64,000 bases of DNA, taken from positions 1-64,000 of the forward strand of contig JAHDQY010000010.1 in the NCBI GenBank assembly GCA_018433595.1, given 5' to 3'. The DNA comes from Synergistales bacterium. Its GTDB lineage: Bacteria; Synergistota; Synergistia; Synergistales; Aminithiophilaceae. The notes beneath the pieces were generated by a model that did not search any database, had not been told where the DNA came from, and saw only the letters and a program-made list of their open reading frames with translations. This document shows positions 30,842-42,829 of the stretch, piece by piece (the first letter of the stretch is position 1; every line of letters begins with the position of its first letter). The position numbers and the translations under genes are program-made.

Positions 30842-32005
30842 CTATCGGACGAAGGCTCCGTAGCTCAGCCCCGCCAGGGCTGACATGACGACGACGAGGG
30901 CGATGAAGGTCAGCGTTTTTTTCGTGCCGAGGACGCTGCGGATGACGAGCATGCTCGGCAGCGATAGGGCCGGACCGGCCAGCAGGAGGGCCAGGGCGGG
31001 CCCCTCTCCCATGCCCGCCCCCAGGAGCCCTTGGAGGATGGGGACCTCGGTGAGGGTGGCGAAGTACATGAGAGCGCCGGCCAGGGAGGCGAAGACGTTG
31101 GCTCCCACCGAGTTGCCGCCCACGAAGGCCGCCACCCAGGACGAAGGAAGGAGGGCGTCGTGGCCGGGCCGACCGAGGAGGAAACCGGCGACGAGGACAC
31201 CGCCGAAGAGGAGGGGTATGACCTGGAGGGCGTAGCCCAGCGTCGACGCGCCCCACTCCTGACGCTCTTCAGCGGAGAACCAGCGCCGCGTCGTGAAAAG
31301 GACGGAAAGCAGGGCTGCCCCCGCCATGGGCCACTTGACGGAGTGGAGGGCCGTCCAGAGGCCGCCGTCGCTGCGGGGGGCGGCGAAGTTGGCGAAGACG
31401 AGAAAAACGACGAGGCCGGCCATGTGCCAGGCCGTCTTCCAGAGGGGCCGCCCCGCCTCCTCGGGAAGCTCGGCGAAGCCCTGCTGGCGCTCGGCCTCTT
31501 CATGGCGGAAGAGGAGAGCCATGGCCAGGCCGATGAGGATACTGAAGGCTACGGCCCCGACGGCGCGGGCCAGGCCGAGCCGGAAACCCAGGACCCGGGC
31601 CGTGAGGACAGTGGAAAGAACGTTGATGGCCGGTCCCGAGTAGAGGAAGGCCGAAGCGGGGCCCAACCCCGCTCCCCGCTTGTAGATGCCTGCGAAGAGA
31701 GGGAGGACCGTGCAGGAACAGACGGCCAGGATCGTCCCTGAGACGGCGGCGACGGAATAGGCCACCCACTTCCTGGCGCCGGCGCCGAGGTACTTCATCA
31801 CCGCCTGCCGGCTGACGAAGACCGAGATGGCCCCGGCGATGAAGAAGGCCGGAACGAGACAAAGCAGGACGTGCTCTCGGGCGTACTCGTGAAGCATGGC
31901 CAGGGCCTCGAAAGAGGCCCTGGCCATGCGGGGATCGGCGATGGGCAGGAAATAGGCCGCCAGAAAGGCGACGGCGATCAGAAAGAGTTTTTTTGAGTCC
32001 GTCAT
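30842..32005 (-). CDS. ArsP/DUF318-type permease
   Basis: The 387-residue integral membrane protein has about ten helices. It bears the permease signatures AVCSCTVLPLFAGIYKRGAGLGPA near residues 88-111 and SGPAINVLS near 115-123, the thiol-containing core of the SO_0444/ArsP family. Members export trivalent methylated arsenicals or other soft metals. ATG 32005 follows AAGGAGG. Placement between a redox thioredoxin-like protein and ArsM supports export of methylarsenite, but substrate is inferred. Confidence 0.85.
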   Translation of the reverse strand: MTDSKKLFLIAVAFLAAYFLPIADPRMARASFEALAMLHEYAREHVLLCLVPAFFIAGAISVFVSRQAVMKYLGAGARKWVAYSVAAVSGTILAVCSCTVLPLFAGIYKRGAGLGPASAFLYSGPAINVLSTVLTARVLGFRLGLARAVGAVAFSILIGLAMALLFRHEEAERQQGFAELPEEAGRPLWKTAWHMAGLVVFLVFANFAAPRSDGGLWTALHSVKWPMAGAALLSVLFTTRRWFSAEERQEWGASTLGYALQVIPLLFGGVLVAGFLLGRPGHDALLPSSWVAAFVGGNSVGANVFASLAGALMYFATLTEVPILQGLLGAGMGEGPALALLLAGPALSLPSMLVIRSVLGTKKTLTFIALVVVMSALAGLSYGAFVR

Positions 32006-32090: not shown

Positions 32091-32339
32091 CTATCTGCCG
32101 TCTCGCGCCCCCTGCAGAAGCGCTCTGACCTGTTCGACCGTCGGAACCTTTCCGGCTGAAAGCACCTTGCCGTCGATAGCCAGTCCCGGTGTCGCCATGA
32201 CGCCGAAGTCGAGGATGTCACCGATCTCCGTCACCTTGACCAGCTCATAGTCGAGGCCCAGCTCCTTGGCGGCCGTCTCGGCCGTTTCGGCCAGTTTTTT
32301 GCACTTGGCGCAGCCCGTTCCCAGAATCTGTATCTTCAA
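32091..32339 (-). CDS. Small thioredoxin-like protein (redox-active disulfide protein)
   Basis: An 82-residue thioredoxin/glutaredoxin-fold protein with active site GTGCAKCKK (CxxC near residues 9-12) and the cis-Pro segment VMATPGLAIDGK near 50. This small family commonly accompanies DUF318 permeases in arsenic and metal clusters, where it may reduce or hand over metal thiolates. TTG 32339 is chosen because GGAGG lies eight bases upstream; the longer open frame runs into the promoter. First gene of the leftward arsenic group. Confidence 0.85.
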   Translation of the reverse strand: MKIQILGTGCAKCKKLAETAETAAKELGLDYELVKVTEIGDILDFGVMATPGLAIDGKVLSAGKVPTVEQVRALLQGARDGR

Positions 32340-32361
32340 AAGAGCCACCTCCGAGAGAATA

Positions 32362-32396
32362 TGTGGCAATATTACCACACATGAAGACCCTGTCAA
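32362..32396 (-). promoter_or_regulatory. ArsR-type operator overlapping promoter of the arsenic group
   Basis: Leftward promoter: TTGACA (32396-32391), 16-base spacer, TAATAT (32374-32369). The palindrome TGTGGCAATATTACCACA (32362-32379) covers the -10, so a bound repressor would block polymerase. The same motif recurs at 39682-39699 and 41038-41055. Confidence 0.8.
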
Positions 32397-37544: not shown

Positions 37545-37745
37545 CCCCCCACGGCTTCCCCAAATCGACAGGCTCGTGCATCACGCCGCAGGTGTGATGC
37601 GGTGGCGGGTTTTTTGGCCCCGCCGTCGCGTCACGGTGGCGCCCAAGGGGAGCCGTTACCGTTTCGTGCTTATTTGAAGGGGACTTCTTGAAGAGGAGGA
37701 TGGTATCATAAGAAAATATAAAGAGAATAAGAGGGAGTGATTCCG

Positions 37746-38900
37746 TTGGCGATCTACCTCAACAACGCCGCTACGACCTGGCCCAAGCCGGAACCGGTGG
37801 CGAAGGCGATGTACGACTTCCTTCTCTCCGGAGGGGCCAACCTGGCTCGGGGCTCGGCCTCGCGTCGCGACCTTCAGACGCTGGACCTCGTCGGCGACGT
37901 CCGGGAGCGGCTGGCCCGCTTTCTCGGCGGCCACGAAAAGGCCGACCCCCGCTACGTCACCTTCGCTCTCAACGTGACGGAGGCCCTTAACGTCATCTTC
38001 AAGGGATTTCTGAGACCGGGGATGAAGGTCGTCACCACGTCGATGGAGCATAACGCCGTCATCCGCCCCCTGCGCCGCCTTGAAGCGGAAGGGGTGGAGC
38101 TGACGATCCTTCCCTGCGACAAGACGGGCCGCCTCGAACCCCGCCTCTTGCAGGAACGTCTCCGGGAGCCTGCCGACCTTTTCGTCCTTTCCCACGCCAG
38201 CAATCTCTGCGGAACCGTCCAGGATCTGGAGTCTCTGGCGGAGGTCTGCCGCCGTCACGGCGTGCCCCTCGTCGTCGACGCGGCTCAGACGGCCGGGCTG
38301 CTTCCCCTCGATGTCGCCTCGCTCGATGTGGCGGCTCTCTGTTTCACCGGCCACAAGGGGCTCCTGGGGCCTCAGGGGACGGGAGGCATCGTCTGGCGCC
38401 CCGATTTCGCGCAGAAGTGCCGCCCCCTCGTCGAAGGAGGGACGGGAAGCCGCTCCCACGAGGAGAGGCAGCCGGAGATGCTGCCCGACAAGTTCGAGTC
38501 GGGAACGCCCAATCTCCCCGGCCTGGCCGGCTTGCGGGCGGCCCTGGTCTGGCTTGAAGAGGAGGGGATCGAAGCGGTGCGGCTCCGCGAGGAACGCCTC
38601 GGCTCACGCCTTCTCGACGGGCTCAAGGCCCTCCCGGGAGTGACGCTCTACGGCCTTGCCGGAATGGAGGGGCGTCTTCCCGTCTTCGCTCTCAATCTGA
38701 AATCCCTCGACAACGGAACCCTGGCCGGCGAGCTGGCCGAGCGCTGGGGGATCGAAACCCGTCCCGGCCTGCACTGCGCCCCTCTGGCCCACAGAACCGT
38801 GGGCAGCTTCCCCGAAGGAGCCCTCCGTCTCTCTCCGGGCTGCTTCAACGCCGAGGAAGAGATCGATCTCTGCCTGGAGGCGCTGAAAAAGCTGGCCTGA
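37746..38900 (+). CDS. Cysteine desulfurase-family protein, copy 1 (TIGR01977-like)
   Basis: Class-V PLP enzyme that takes sulfur from cysteine, or selenium from selenocysteine. The PLP lysine is K204 in FTGHKGLLGPQG, the catalytic loop cysteine is C344 in GLHCAPLAH, and VDAAQTAG plus DKFESGTPNLPGLAGL are family marks. TTG 37746 is chosen because it aligns with the start of copy 2 and follows GGGAG by eight bases. The 384 residues are full length. Its paralogue at 39815 is clearly similar throughout. Members of this branch often neighbour selenium and DUF3343 genes, as here. Confidence 0.88.
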   Translation: MAIYLNNAATTWPKPEPVAKAMYDFLLSGGANLARGSASRRDLQTLDLVGDVRERLARFLGGHEKADPRYVTFALNVTEALNVIFKGFLRPGMKVVTTSMEHNAVIRPLRRLEAEGVELTILPCDKTGRLEPRLLQERLREPADLFVLSHASNLCGTVQDLESLAEVCRRHGVPLVVDAAQTAGLLPLDVASLDVAALCFTGHKGLLGPQGTGGIVWRPDFAQKCRPLVEGGTGSRSHEERQPEMLPDKFESGTPNLPGLAGLRAALVWLEEEGIEAVRLREERLGSRLLDGLKALPGVTLYGLAGMEGRLPVFALNLKSLDNGTLAGELAERWGIETRPGLHCAPLAHRTVGSFPEGALRLSPGCFNAEEEIDLCLEALKKLA

Positions 38901-38920: not shown

Positions 38921-39232
38921 TTAGAGGAAGCGGAAGCGGTACCGTCCCAGCCCCTCGACGTGGAAGAGGTAATCGCCCTTGTCGGTGGGCGTCTTTTTCA
39001 GGTTTTCCAGGACTTCCCTGGAGATCCAGCAGGTCATGGCCTCGACTCCTTCGACGCGAAAGGCTTCGAAATCGGCCGTCTCCTGCATTTCAGGCTTGCC
39101 TCGAAGGCCCGACGGGCCTTTGAAGGCCGTTCATCACCCGGCGATGATCGTCGCCCAGACGATTCGGAAATCGCCGCCCTGTCTTGTCACCTCTTCGATC
39201 CAGTAAGGCGAAGTGATGCGGATGCTCTTCAT
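38921..39232 (-). CDS. Candidate selenoprotein with adjacent Sec-Sec (HesB-like / CC/Se-motif family)
   Basis: Reading from ATG 39232 (after GGAGGTG) gives MKSIRITSPYWIEEV, then after IIAG two consecutive TGA codons (39136-39134 and 39133-39131, residues 33 and 34). The same frame then runs uninterrupted for 69 more codons (GKPEMQETADFEAF, GVEAMTCW) to TAA at 38921. If TGA is read as selenocysteine the product is 103 residues. Its layout, a beta-rich start, a UU pair, GKP, then an FxVxGV strand, fits small IscA/HesB-like (seleno)proteins in which CC is replaced by Sec. A hairpin with a GUC loop lies 10 bases past the second TGA. Sec machinery lies outside the window, so decoding is inferred. 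Confidence 0.72.
39104..39120 (-). promoter_or_regulatory. SECIS-like hairpin following the double TGA
   Basis: On the coding strand AAGGCCC-GUC-GGGCCUU forms a perfect 7-bp stem with a three-base loop starting in G. It begins 10 bases after the second UGA, placing the loop 17 and 20 bases after the two UGAs. This agrees with the general bacterial SECIS rules as I know them (stem, small loop with early G, about 16-37 bases away). Competing pairings of GGCCUU exist nearby. Confidence 0.55.
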
Positions 39233-39330
39233 AGGAGGCACCTCCATGATGACTATGTGGTCAGCAAGGCACATAAAGCCTGACAAAAAAAGGACCCGAC
39301 GGCAAGAGCGGCGAGGGAGGCCCCGACTTA

Positions 39331-39648
39331 TTAGGAGCCCTCCAGCTGCCGCAGGTTTTCGAGGGTGTCCTGGCGGATGGCTCCGTTGAGGCAGGTGAGG
39401 AGCCGTCCCAGGCAGCTGAGGACGAGGGAGTAGTAGACGTTGAGGCCTTCCTTTCGGTCGGAGATGACGCCGGCGTTGCGCAGGACGGCCAGGTGCTTGC
39501 TGATCGTCGTCCTGTCGCAGGGGAACCACTGGGCGATCTCACAGACGCAGCGTTCCCCCTCCATGAGCCGTTCGGCGATGGTCAGTCGCACGGGGTGGGA
39601 GAGGGCCTTGAAGATGGTCACCTTGCGTTCCAGCAGATAGTCGCTCAA
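39331..39648 (-). CDS. ArsR/SmtB-family metalloid-responsive repressor
   Basis: A 105-residue winged-helix repressor. The metal site of the ArsR type is present as ERCVCEI with C34 and C36. The recognition region reads RTTISKHLAVLRNAGVISDRKEG. As(III) or Sb(III) binding to such cysteines releases DNA. TTG 39648 follows GGAGG by eight bases. A palindrome lies upstream in its promoter, and an identical-type palindrome precedes the arsenic group at 32.4 kb, so this protein probably controls both. It is followed by the selenoprotein candidate on the same strand, 98 bases away. Confidence 0.9.
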   Translation of the reverse strand: MSDYLLERKVTIFKALSHPVRLTIAERLMEGERCVCEIAQWFPCDRTTISKHLAVLRNAGVISDRKEGLNVYYSLVLSCLGRLLTCLNGAIRQDTLENLRQLEGS

Positions 39649-39814: not shown

Positions 39815-41002
39815 TTGGCTATTTATCTCAACAACGCTGCCACGACGTGGCCCAAGCCGGAGCCTGTAGCAAGGGCGATGTACGATTTTCTTATCTCCGG
39901 GGGAGCAAACCTGGCCCGAGGTTCGGCGGCACGGCGTGATCTCAAGACATTTAATCTTGTCGGGGATCTTCGAGAGAGAGTCGCGACCCTCTTCGGCGGG
40001 TACGAGGGTGGCGACCCCCGCTACGTAACCTTTACCTCCGGCGTGACGGAGGCCCTCAATATTGTCCTCAAAGGCTACCTCAGGCCCGGCATGCGCGCCG
40101 TTACGACATCCATGGAACACAACTCCGTCATCCGCCCCCTCCGGCGTCTTGAGGCTCAAGGCATGGAGCTGACGATTCTCCGCTGCGACGGAAAGGGGCG
40201 CCTTGATCCTCTTGTCCTTAAACGACGTCTCGAAGAGCCTGCCGACCTTTTCGTTCTTGCCGGCGCCAGCAATCTCTGCGGCGCCATTCAGGATCTGGAA
40301 GCCGTAGCCGAGATTTGCCGGGAACGAAAGGTGCCCCTTGTGGTCGACGCGGCTCAGACGGCGGGGCTTCTCCCTCATGATGCCGAGTCGCTGAATTTGG
40401 CGGCTCTGTGCTTCACGGGCCACAAGGCGCTTCAGGGGCCTCAGGGGACGGGAGGCATCGTCTGGCGGCCTGATTTCGCCCAAAAATGTCTTCCCCTCGT
40501 TGAAGGAGGCACGGGAAGCCGCTCCCACGAGGAACATCAGCCCGACGTGCTGCCGGACAAATTTGAGTCGGGGACGCCGAACCTCCCTGGTTTGGCCGGA
40601 CTCGGGGCGGCTCTGGAGTGGCTTGAAACCGAAGGGATCGACAAGGTGCGCCGTCGGGAGGAATCCCTCGGCGAACGCCTCCTCGAGGGACTTAAGGAGC
40701 TGCCGGGGGTGAGTCTTTACGGTTCGTCGGAGATGGAAGGCCGTCTTCCCGTCTTTACCCTTAATCTGAAGAACTTCGATAACGATGCCCTTGCCTGCGA
40801 GCTGGCCCGGCGCTGGGGGATTGAGACACGCCCCGGCATTCACTGTGCCCCCCTGGCTCACCAGACCTTGGGGAGCTTTCCGCAGGGTGCGTTGCGCCTC
40901 TCGCCGGGCTACTTCAACACGGAGGAGGAAATCGAGGTCTGCCTGGAGGCCCTGAGAGAGCTGGCAAGCCCAAAGACGGCCACCTTGCGTTCCGGCAGAT
41001 AG
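39815..41002 (+). CDS. Cysteine desulfurase-family protein, copy 2
   Basis: Full-length paralogue of the gene at 37746, with the same K204 and C344 positions and nearly the same motif set (VDAAQTAGLLP, FTGHKALQGPQG, GIHCAPLAHQT). Starts at TTG 39815 behind GGGAGG. Its last 11 residues (SPKTATLRSGR) are absent from copy 1 and are encoded by antisense of an arsR remnant, showing that the 3' end was joined to foreign sequence. Probably active as a sulfur or selenium donor for the neighbouring genes; divergent from arsR. Confidence 0.88.
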   Translation: MAIYLNNAATTWPKPEPVARAMYDFLISGGANLARGSAARRDLKTFNLVGDLRERVATLFGGYEGGDPRYVTFTSGVTEALNIVLKGYLRPGMRAVTTSMEHNSVIRPLRRLEAQGMELTILRCDGKGRLDPLVLKRRLEEPADLFVLAGASNLCGAIQDLEAVAEICRERKVPLVVDAAQTAGLLPHDAESLNLAALCFTGHKALQGPQGTGGIVWRPDFAQKCLPLVEGGTGSRSHEEHQPDVLPDKFESGTPNLPGLAGLGAALEWLETEGIDKVRRREESLGERLLEGLKELPGVSLYGSSEMEGRLPVFTLNLKNFDNDALACELARRWGIETRPGIHCAPLAHQTLGSFPQGALRLSPGYFNTEEEIEVCLEALRELASPKTATLRSGR

Positions 41003-41146: not shown

Positions 41147-41416
41147 TCAGGAGGAGGGAGTTCCTGCCTCTTTCGGAGTCCTCTCCCGGACGAAAGAGGC
41201 ATTGACGGAGACGGAGCGGGCCGCCTCGCGGACGGCCTCCTCCTCTATCGAGGGGAACCGGAGGGCCAGGCCGCAGCTTTTCGAGAGATGGCGCGGCGTG
41301 GGGCAGAGGGAGTGGCCGACGTCGAGCCGTCTCAGGGCGCCGGAGAGGCGCATGCCGTCCGAGGTCGTTTCGAAGAGGGCGTAGACCCAAAAAGAGGGGG
41401 AAGCTTCTTCGGTCAT
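41147..41416 (-). CDS. DUF3343 protein, putative Se/S carrier
   Basis: An 89-residue protein with the DUF3343 pattern: an N-terminal strand (VYALFETTSDGMRLSGALRRL), then CPTPRHLSKSCGLALRF near residues 37-53 with two cysteines. The family is annotated as a putative selenium/sulfur carrier because it resembles YedF/TusA and travels with cysteine desulfurases. ATG 41416 overlaps the reductase stop (ATGA), so the two are co-translated. With the desulfurase pair and candidate selenoprotein next door, a chalcogen-relay role is likely but unproven. Confidence 0.85.
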   Translation of the reverse strand: MTEEASPSFWVYALFETTSDGMRLSGALRRLDVGHSLCPTPRHLSKSCGLALRFPSIEEEAVREAARSVSVNASFVRERTPKEAGTPSS

Positions 41417-42699
41417 CGGTGACGGCGGAGACTTTCTCCGAAGGCCTCGACGCGCGTTTTGAGCTGGCCTTCGTCGCCCGGCGTGTAGTCCGTTTCGAGG
41501 GAGAGGAAGGGAATGCCTTCTGCGGCCAGGCGCCGACGCAGTTTTTCCTCTTCGATCTGGTAGGTGGTGCAGAAGCTGAGGGAGAGATGGACCACGCCGT
41601 CGGCGCCGTATTCCCGGGCGAGGCGGACGATGTCGTCGAGACGTCCCTCGTTGGGCGAGAAGCAGGCGCAGTGGATGCCGTCGAAATAGCGATGGGCCAG
41701 ACTGTCGAGAAGAGAGGCCAGATCCTTCTTTTCGGGGAGGGAGACTTTTTGCTCGAAGTAGCGCGTGCCCGTGCAGTTTTCCTCGACGACGACGGCCAGA
41801 TTGCTCGTCTCGGCGATGGCGTGGAATTTCCAGTTGGGGACGACGATGGGCGTTCCCGTCACGAGGAGGCGCGGCGTTCCCTTGGGGAAGACGCCCTGTC
41901 CCCGGGCGACCCGCTCCTCGCATTCGGTCGCCAGGGCCTCTGTCTGGGCGATGAAACGCTCCGGGTCGTCGTAGAAGGCGATCTGACTGACGAGGAGGGC
42001 GTCCCGACCCGACAGGGGAAGGGGATCGGCTTTGCGGAGAGCATAGAGGCGATCAAGGGCCCTTCGCTTTCTGTCGACGCGTTCGCAGCCCTTGAGAAGG
42101 TTTTCCGCCGTCAGGGTCTTTCCCGTCAGTTCTTCGAGACGTCTCACCAGGGCCTCCATCTCCTGGCGGAAGAGGGCGAAGCCGGCAGGGCTCTTTTTGT
42201 TGGGCATGTCCATGACGTAGAGGGGCGCTTCGTCGGCAAGAATGTCCCAGGCCTTCTTCTTCCCGTCGCAGGTGTTTTCGCCCACGATGAGGTCGACGGA
42301 CTGGAAATAGGGGCAGGTGCGGGATATGCGGGCACCCATTCCGGCCTTGACGAGGGCGCAGAGATTGCGAGGCAGAAGGGTCTCGCCCGCCGGAACCCAG
42401 AACTGGGATCCGGCGCAGAGTCCAACGAGAAGGCCGTCCAGAGCGAGGACGATCTCCTCCGGGACGTAGATGCAGAAGGAGCCGACCACCGTGCCTCCCC
42501 TCTCCTTGTGGGCCAGGAGTTCCTTGATCCTCAGGCCGTGGACTTCCGCGATGACCATGTTGAAGTAGTCCATGGCCGCCGGGCGGTCCTTCTGATCGAG
42601 AAATGTCTCTCCGAAAAGGACAGGAAGGGCGTCGCAAAGCTTGTCGTGCGTCTCCAGATCAATGCCCAGACCGTTCCACATGTCACGATAATCGGCCAT
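41413..42699 (-). CDS. Double-cubane-cluster anaerobic reductase (HgdB/DCCP family)
   Basis: A 428-residue member of the 2-hydroxyacyl-CoA dehydratase D-component family, close to YjiM and the double-cubane cluster protein. Conserved cysteines occur in LVGLCAGSQFWVPAGE, ARISRTCPYFQSVD, VGENTCDGKKK and IHCACFSPNEG, with GTPIVVPNWK near 285. Such proteins perform ATP-driven low-potential reductions of small molecules when paired with an activase (HgdC-like), which is not adjacent here. ATG 42699 is preferred to an upstream TTG at 42732. Co-translated with DUF3343, suggesting reduction of a sulfur or selenium compound. Confidence 0.87.
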   Translation of the reverse strand: MADYRDMWNGLGIDLETHDKLCDALPVLFGETFLDQKDRPAAMDYFNMVIAEVHGLRIKELLAHKERGGTVVGSFCIYVPEEIVLALDGLLVGLCAGSQFWVPAGETLLPRNLCALVKAGMGARISRTCPYFQSVDLIVGENTCDGKKKAWDILADEAPLYVMDMPNKKSPAGFALFRQEMEALVRRLEELTGKTLTAENLLKGCERVDRKRRALDRLYALRKADPLPLSGRDALLVSQIAFYDDPERFIAQTEALATECEERVARGQGVFPKGTPRLLVTGTPIVVPNWKFHAIAETSNLAVVVEENCTGTRYFEQKVSLPEKKDLASLLDSLAHRYFDGIHCACFSPNEGRLDDIVRLAREYGADGVVHLSLSFCTTYQIEEEKLRRRLAAEGIPFLSLETDYTPGDEGQLKTRVEAFGESLRRHR

Positions 42700-42829
42700 A
42701 CCCGTTGGTCCCCCTTTGTTTTGAAATAACACTTATGACATAAAATAATTATTCATGCCGAGTTTACACGATCTTTCACGGAGGTGCAACGGATCGGAAT
42801 TCCCGAAGGGAAAAAGAGGGCCTCCAAAA

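Follow-up and report, generated by a model that had tools for sequence, protein, structure and literature searches.

The window analysed here (the whole stretch of 64,000 nucleotides, comprising positions 1-64,000 of contig JAHDQY010000010.1 in assembly GCA_018433595.1, from a Synergistales bacterium of the Aminithiophilaceae) contains a small gene in which two consecutive TGA codons are almost certainly both decoded as selenocysteine (Sec), and on comparative sequence grounds the identification of its product as a Sec-Sec selenoprotein is complete in all but biochemical proof. The best explanation for the role of this protein, which we consider probable, is that it captures a metalloid of the As(III) type by means of its vicinal selenols, in an ArsD-like manner and under ArsR-type control. 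We class the Sec-Sec proteins (referred to below as UU proteins, for their residues U33 and U34) as a new subfamily which has two Sec residues and is related to the CC/Se motif proteins. A sequence-only reading of this DNA had pointed to the paired TGA codons; the ArsR gene, the operator palindrome and the arsenic-type context are additions beyond it. The coordinates of the different features are given in Table 1.

Table 1. Coordinates of the Sec-Sec gene and of associated features within the window
Feature	Position	Strand	Remarks
Sec-Sec protein CDS, 103 residues (U33, U34)	38921..39232	-	Open if TGA is read as a residue; homologues found in 30 Synergistota genomes and beyond this phylum
TGATGA, two consecutive Sec codons (residues 33, 34)	39131..39136	-	In all 31 Synergistota UU copies; aligns with TGY TGY (Cys-Cys) of paralogues
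SECIS-like hairpin, 7-bp stem, loop GUC starting 17 nt after second TGA	39104..39120	-	Wobble constraint in codons 39-42; covariation; fold z -2.6
Shine-Dalgarno GGAGGT, 7 nt 5' of ATG	39240..39245	-	Read directly
Operator-like box TATGTG-N10-CACATA, TATGTGGTCAGCAAGGCACATA, between arsR and UU gene, 22 bp upstream of ATG	39254..39275	.	Perfect match
ArsR/SmtB metalloregulator, immediately upstream of UU gene	39331..39648	-	NF033788 90.9 bits (cut-off 55); PF01022
Cysteine desulfurase family protein (TIGR01977, EF2568-like), convergent neighbour	37737..38900	+	398.5 bits (cut-off 377)
Second TIGR01977 cysteine desulfurase family protein	39815..41002	+	391.1 bits (cut-off 377)
DUF3343 / Se_S_carrier protein, start overlapping stop of 41413..42732 gene	41147..41416	-	PF11823 51 bits
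Double-cubane-cluster-containing anaerobic reductase	41413..42732	-	NF040772 445 bits (cut-off 350)
Second operator-like box, 21 bp upstream of Trx-ArsP operon	32360..32381	.	1 mismatch
MTH895/ArsE family thioredoxin-like protein	32091..32339	-	TIGR00412 102 bits (cut-off 62)
ArsP-type permease, related to SaoE and SO_0444 efflux proteins	30842..32005	-	PF03773 247 bits; NCBIfam relatives below cut-offs

Conservation of the two TGA codons in Synergistota

The sequence-only reading had described a single frame of 103 codons extending from the ATG at 39232 to the TAA at 38921, with TGATGA at 39136-39131 as its sole break, and translation of the sequence confirmed this. It had also stated that standard annotation would shorten the gene, and under translation table 11 only 32 codons, or a 55-residue fragment from 39088, are indeed obtained. 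The coding character noted 3' of the TGA codons is likewise borne out, as dN was lower than dS in 5 of the 6 genome pairs tested (in the sixth pair dS was saturated); in the comparison of the window with L005, the segment after the TGAs gave a dN of 0.28 and a dS of 0.99. A genome-wide reassignment of TGA is ruled out, because this codon is the normal stop in 8 of the 14 window genes that were checked and because homologues of the protein carry Cys. As a separate observation, the Shine-Dalgarno sequence constitutes half of a near-perfect palindrome, GGAGGTGCCTCC (39234-39245), and a hairpin at this place could conceal the ribosome site of the UU gene.

Homologues were searched for first in 100 relatives and then in the whole phylum (188 Synergistota genomes), and they were found in 32 of these 188 genomes. 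Exactly two TGAs are present at the site in 30 genomes (31 copies, G065 having two), six copies in Synergistota are free of stops, and a copy with a single TGA was not found among the homologues from the 188 genomes searched. Due to this distribution, the conservation of TGATGA is far beyond that expected by chance, and since no copy contains only one TGA, the pair behaves as a unit. In five copies (from G001, G002, G003 and G025, and from G008, where the copy is truncated), GUUx is replaced by GCCS, and the genomes containing these Cys-Cys copies all hold a UU copy as well; the copy in G017 reads GFCE at this site and the match in G010 is a fragment lacking it. The Cys-Cys homologues for which the sequence-only reading had suggested looking are thus present (L032, L034 and L036), with Cys at both TGA positions. 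The UU gene is also found in a cultured species, Acetomicrobium hydrogeniformans ATCC BAA-1850 (L120).

Homologues in other phyla

A DNA pattern corresponding to G-U-U-x-[AV]-[FY]-x-G-P-x-G-L (TGATGA plus the GPxGL codons) was run over 84,980 species, and in addition to Synergistota it identified clear homologues in contigs filed under Chloroflexi (L097, L117, L118), Deltaproteobacteria (L099), Acidobacteriota (L114), Eisenbacteria (L116) and Planctomycetota (L107). Because the pattern demanded UU, these matches should not be interpreted as indicating how frequent UC, CU or CC are outside Synergistota, on which they carry no information. Two other matches (L108 and L109) were chance occurrences without a homologous protein. 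The sequence filed under Planctomycetota is on a contig of 3.4 kb that is very similar to Synergistota, where the UU gene lies beside an ArsC-like gene, and its MAG is without a proper selA; for these reasons it is likely to represent contamination, the alternative being transfer. G32, U33, U34, G39 and G96 do not vary in a 24-row alignment of the family, save that the two CC rows have C in place of U. No plasmid or viral homologues of the Sec-Sec protein were found.

Decoding of the two UGA codons

The G-first-loop hairpin that the sequence-only reading had placed at SECIS distance from the TGA codons is conserved, and it is supported by both covariation and constraint on wobble bases. Its layout is TGATGA, 10 nt, a stem of 7 bp and a loop GNN, and the protein sequence encoded in this region is K/R-G-P-x-G-L. 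In the stem columns (17-23 against 27-33, numbered from the initial T of TGATGA) the paired cells amount to 93.5%, and the covariation of 0.232, compared with 0.159 in shuffles, was reached in 0 of 500 shuffles (which ignore kinship) and is also higher than that of slid versions of the stem. In a set of 26 Synergistota UU genes freed of redundancy, the residue at codon 41 may be V, S, A, E, M or L, but the codon terminates in G in 26/26, and the wobble base is C for Gly39 in 23/26, G for Pro40 in 24/26 and C for Gly42 in 24/25; at other conserved glycines three or four wobble bases are used. In L028, where Ala replaces Gly42, the stem shows a compensatory G-C swap, and in the CC and FC copies the stem is lost, with GAAAY or SLLGL encoded at the hairpin site. 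Exceptions to the G-first loop are L006 and L007, in which the loop is CAU. In L114, L117 and L118 an alternative stem with a GGUC loop is present slightly downstream (CCCAUCA-GGUC-UGAUGGG in both L117 and L118), and it is the predicted fold in L114 and L117; its tip, CA-GGUC-UG, in our view resembles the SECIS of E. coli fdhF. A clear hairpin was not found after TGATGA in L097, and there was no match to Rfam anywhere within the window.

The genes for Sec synthesis and insertion, which the sequence-only reading had proposed to look for, are all encoded by the window genome, viz. selA (547 bits), selB (359 bits summed over pieces), selC (tRNA-Sec, 78 bits) and selD. As its selD gene (G000:C58:171256-172185, L080) carries one in-frame TGA, SelD is probably itself a selenoprotein in this genome. 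Matches to selA are present in 139 of the 188 Synergistota genomes, including every genome bearing a homologue, although in G019 only a fragment below the cut-off was seen at a contig end; for 32 of 32 homologue-bearing genomes with selA, the naive hypergeometric chance is 2e-5 when kinship is ignored. In the genomes reached via the pattern loci, selA was above the cut-off in 7 of 8. Neither of the genomic findings that the sequence-only reading had named as speaking against it, i.e. a lack of any homologue with CC, CU or UU and an absence of selA, selB and selC, was encountered. It is thus very improbable that the TGAs are simply stops and the gene a pseudogene or the source of a 32-residue peptide: although such an interpretation matches the conventional annotation, it is opposed by the conserved TGATGA, the CC paralogues, the selection downstream, the constrained hairpin and the sel genes. 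Our interpretation of decoding is that SelB and tRNA-Sec would read both UGAs as Sec, with the one hairpin inside the coding sequence presumably serving both of them. If both UGAs are read, two questions become open to experiment, viz. by what means SelB decodes UGAs in succession with a single hairpin, and for what reason the cell bears the cost of two adjacent selenols. UU genes are truncated or missed by ordinary annotation.

Predicted fold and relationship to HesB/IscA-like proteins

AlphaFold2 models were obtained both for the 33-row family (pLDDT 94) and from a Chloroflexi-led alignment (pLDDT 88), and for both of them the best PDB matches by Foldseek were HesB/IscA-family chains (the first five for one model and the first ten for the other), with weak scores (E about 0.009, TM about 0.4). 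The matches were to IscA, SufA, AQ_1857 and YneR and, for the second model, also to DsrR and HI1723; we take YneR, DsrR and HI1723 to be members of the HesB/IscA family. By hhalign, the UU proteins match the single-Sec NF041239-type proteins of Synergistota at 95.2%, with U33 placed on their Sec, and the latter proteins in turn match IscA/SufA/ErpA at 64%, with the Sec on Cys35. As the direct hhalign of the UU family against IscA/SufA/ErpA is not significant (1.4%), the link to IscA rests on the fold search and on the NF041239 intermediate. Prediction thus supports a HesB/IscA-like beta fold in which U33 would be at the place of Cys35 of IscA with U34 beside it, and in the model UU is located in a tight turn joining two long strands.

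The assignment of the protein by the sequence-only reading to small HesB/IscA-like (seleno)proteins with a CC/Se motif is supported, with a correction as to the family. The CC homologues and the kinship with NF041239 with Sec in register are in accordance with it, but TIGR01911, the model suggested there, matched neither the protein nor the genome. The CC/Se-motif model NF041239 (curated cut-off 40 bits), which was also to be searched, is a sub-threshold relative: the window protein does not match it, the Synergistota UU members are far below the cut-off, and the best UU relative, a Chloroflexi member, scores 39.8 bits. No model in Pfam and NCBIfam (June 2026), PF01521 (HesB/IscA) included, matched the window protein. 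In a PDB sequence search the only match of the window protein was dismissed as chance, and a viral fold search added nothing. In terms of the known families, NF041239 (Moor_selen_rel) is similar in that its members are small, HesB-like and carry Sec where the window family has U33; however, they have one Sec (PMC13188914 lists a single Sec, and most Synergistota copies with better scores show one TGA), whereas the window family has two, and several Synergistota genomes carry NF041239-type and UU genes separately. With TIGR01911 and PF01521 the UU family would share the fold and the placement of U33, if the prediction is right; however, neither model matches, and all members of the UU family lack the C-terminal CxC, which supplies cluster ligands that canonical A-type Fe-S carriers require. 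A canonical IscA/HesB protein (PF01521) was found in none of the 31 Synergistota genomes searched, the window genome among them. In the NF041239-type genes of Synergistota (L085-L094), an inverted repeat (GCTCTCGTTGAGAGC or similar, encoding A-L-V-E-S-G) is conserved just after the TGA.

Gene neighbourhood and the operator-like palindrome

In the window, arsR and the UU gene have a TIGR01977 gene on either side; these two genes are paralogous, and G002 (L034) shows the same duplication. The overlap of the DUF3343 gene with the stop of the double-cubane reductase gene (41147-42732) suggests that these two genes are translationally coupled. The sequence-only reading had regarded desulfurase and DUF3343 neighbours as typical of selenium loci; the two TIGR01977 genes and DUF3343 are there, but among the loci examined this Se/S gene set adjoins the UU gene in the window's own genus only, and ars genes recur elsewhere. 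In other families and phyla the genes near UU are those for ArsR, ACR3, ArsP-type permeases, MTH895/ArsE thioredoxin, ArsC-like phosphatase, ArsM, BFD-like and Trx/DsbD-like proteins; ArsP, ArsC, ArsM and Trx genes are close to it in the majority of families. ACR3 is located within 1.4 kb of the UU gene in eight genomes (G009, G012, G026, G028, G033, G035, G041 and G065), and in the remaining UU genomes with ACR3 the two genes are on different contigs. It lies directly downstream of the UU gene in two of the Chloroflexi loci (L097, L117), ArsP and ArsR are near it in the third (L118), and an arsenite-methyltransferase-like (ArsM-like) gene is 5 kb from it in the deltaproteobacterial locus (L099). 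None of the arsenic markers sought were seen near the UU gene in L043, L046, L098, L114 and L116, some of these contigs being short, and ACR3 is absent from the window genome. Because ars-type genes recur across families and phyla whereas the Se/S set is genus-specific, the recurrent context points to metalloid handling and not to selenium supply.

The same evidence bears on the possibility that the protein is an IscA-like carrier of Se, S or Fe-S, which is fed Se or S by the cysteine desulfurases on either side and has DUF3343 and the double-cubane reductase as partners. The flanking TIGR01977 genes and the nearby DUF3343 and NF040772 genes of the window genus agree with this, as does the predicted IscA-like fold; DUF3343 and Sec lyase have been proposed to act as a set in Se trafficking (PMC5322559), and in view of the negative PF01521 searches an A-type carrier might be missing from these genomes. 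However, among the loci examined this neighbourhood is replaced by ars genes in other families, the C-terminal CxC is lacking and a protein that itself requires two Sec residues would be an odd supplier for Sec synthesis, and we regard a carrier function as quite unlikely.

Metalloid handling is also indicated by the operator-like box that lies between arsR and the UU gene. In the window there are only two boxes with at most one mismatch, where 0 are expected in shuffles, and none occurs in three control stretches of the window genome. In three congeneric genomes, boxes are present 20-23 bp before the UU gene and also before the Trx-ArsP operon and the operon of the CC paralogue. For the half-site TATGTG, 21 boxes were found in 14 of 19 loci at 11/12 or more matches, whereas 59 permuted half-sites averaged 0.36 boxes and never gave more than 2. 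Throughout Synergistota, ars-type operons are marked by a shared palindrome with the consensus TATGTGGTAATATTACCACATA (the window boxes; L032, L034-L038, L047 and L051). The palindrome is probably an ArsR operator, to which we infer that the ArsR protein binds, and the inclusion of the UU gene and the Trx-ArsP operon in one ArsR-type regulon is supported by prediction and statistics.

Proposed function of the Sec-Sec proteins

Based on these considerations, the UU gene would be controlled jointly with the ArsP/thioredoxin operon through the ArsR-type operator, and the selenols of U33 and U34, possibly joined by Cys68 or another third ligand, would capture a soft metalloid, viz. As(III) or an organoarsenical. 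Cys68 is conserved within Synergistota (25 of 26 UU copies and all non-Sec copies) and is not conserved outside this phylum. The bound metalloid would then be handed to efflux, reduction or methylation, or else be buffered, a role similar to that of ArsD but on an unrelated fold. The identity of the metal and its hand-off are inferred steps, and the cargo may also be Hg or Sb, as these ArsP-type permeases may have other substrates. More tentatively, and with somewhat less than even confidence, the Sec-Sec proteins can be viewed as a selenoprotein family not described before and extending across several phyla, in which an obligatory Sec-Sec dipeptide would be decoded with one SECIS and would form a vicinal diselenolate site for As(III) or other metalloids on an IscA-like scaffold in ArsR regulons. 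The ars context offers an answer to the question of the cost of two selenols, viz. that a soft metalloid would be tightly bound by the pair, and the UU protein is a candidate for a selenium-dependent component added to the arsenic-type resistance of anaerobes.

An unlikely alternative, to which we nonetheless give more weight than to a carrier function, is that the protein is a redox enzyme, in which Sec-Sec cycles between diselenide and diselenol and reduces a metalloid or organoarsenical with electrons from the adjacent thioredoxin, BFD-like or DsbD-like proteins, instead of keeping the metalloid bound. Genes for Trx, a DsbD-like permease and BFD-like 2Fe-2S proteins do adjoin the UU gene in several families, and uncharacterised selenoproteins probably serve mostly redox functions (review PMC13188914). 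However, these partner genes are not constant, and CxxU, UxxC and the thioredoxin fold are all absent. Further, neighbouring residues joined as a diselenide close into an eight-membered ring that is strained, which is unusual for fast redox cycling.

For metalloid capture by the UU protein, the nearest functional analogue is ArsD, a small protein which is encoded in ars operons and carries two vicinal Cys residues plus a third one. ArsD, however, has Cys-Cys where the UU protein has Sec-Sec, no ArsA was seen, and the fold of ArsD presumably differs from that predicted for the UU protein. No member of the UU family matched the ArsD models in Pfam or NCBIfam. The As(III) site of ArsD is formed by Cys12, Cys13 and Cys18 (PMC4562236).

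Among the 119 families of prokaryotic selenoproteins inventoried in 2026, no adjacent Sec-Sec motif is named (PMC13188914), and an earlier mention, e.g. in the Haft papers (PMC12013261, PMC9879109), is possible. The arsenite methyltransferase selenoproteins NF041536 and NF041537 and the SAO system are similar in that they are assigned to the handling of metalloids or organometals and some contain 2-3 Sec (PMC13188914); however, they are unrelated proteins whose motifs are listed as UxxG or CxxU (PMC13188914), and the 'UU' in NCBIfam short names need not mean that the residues are adjacent. The inventory also notes that selenoproteins discovered of late include a group linked for the most part to resistance against mercury and arsenic (PMC13188914).
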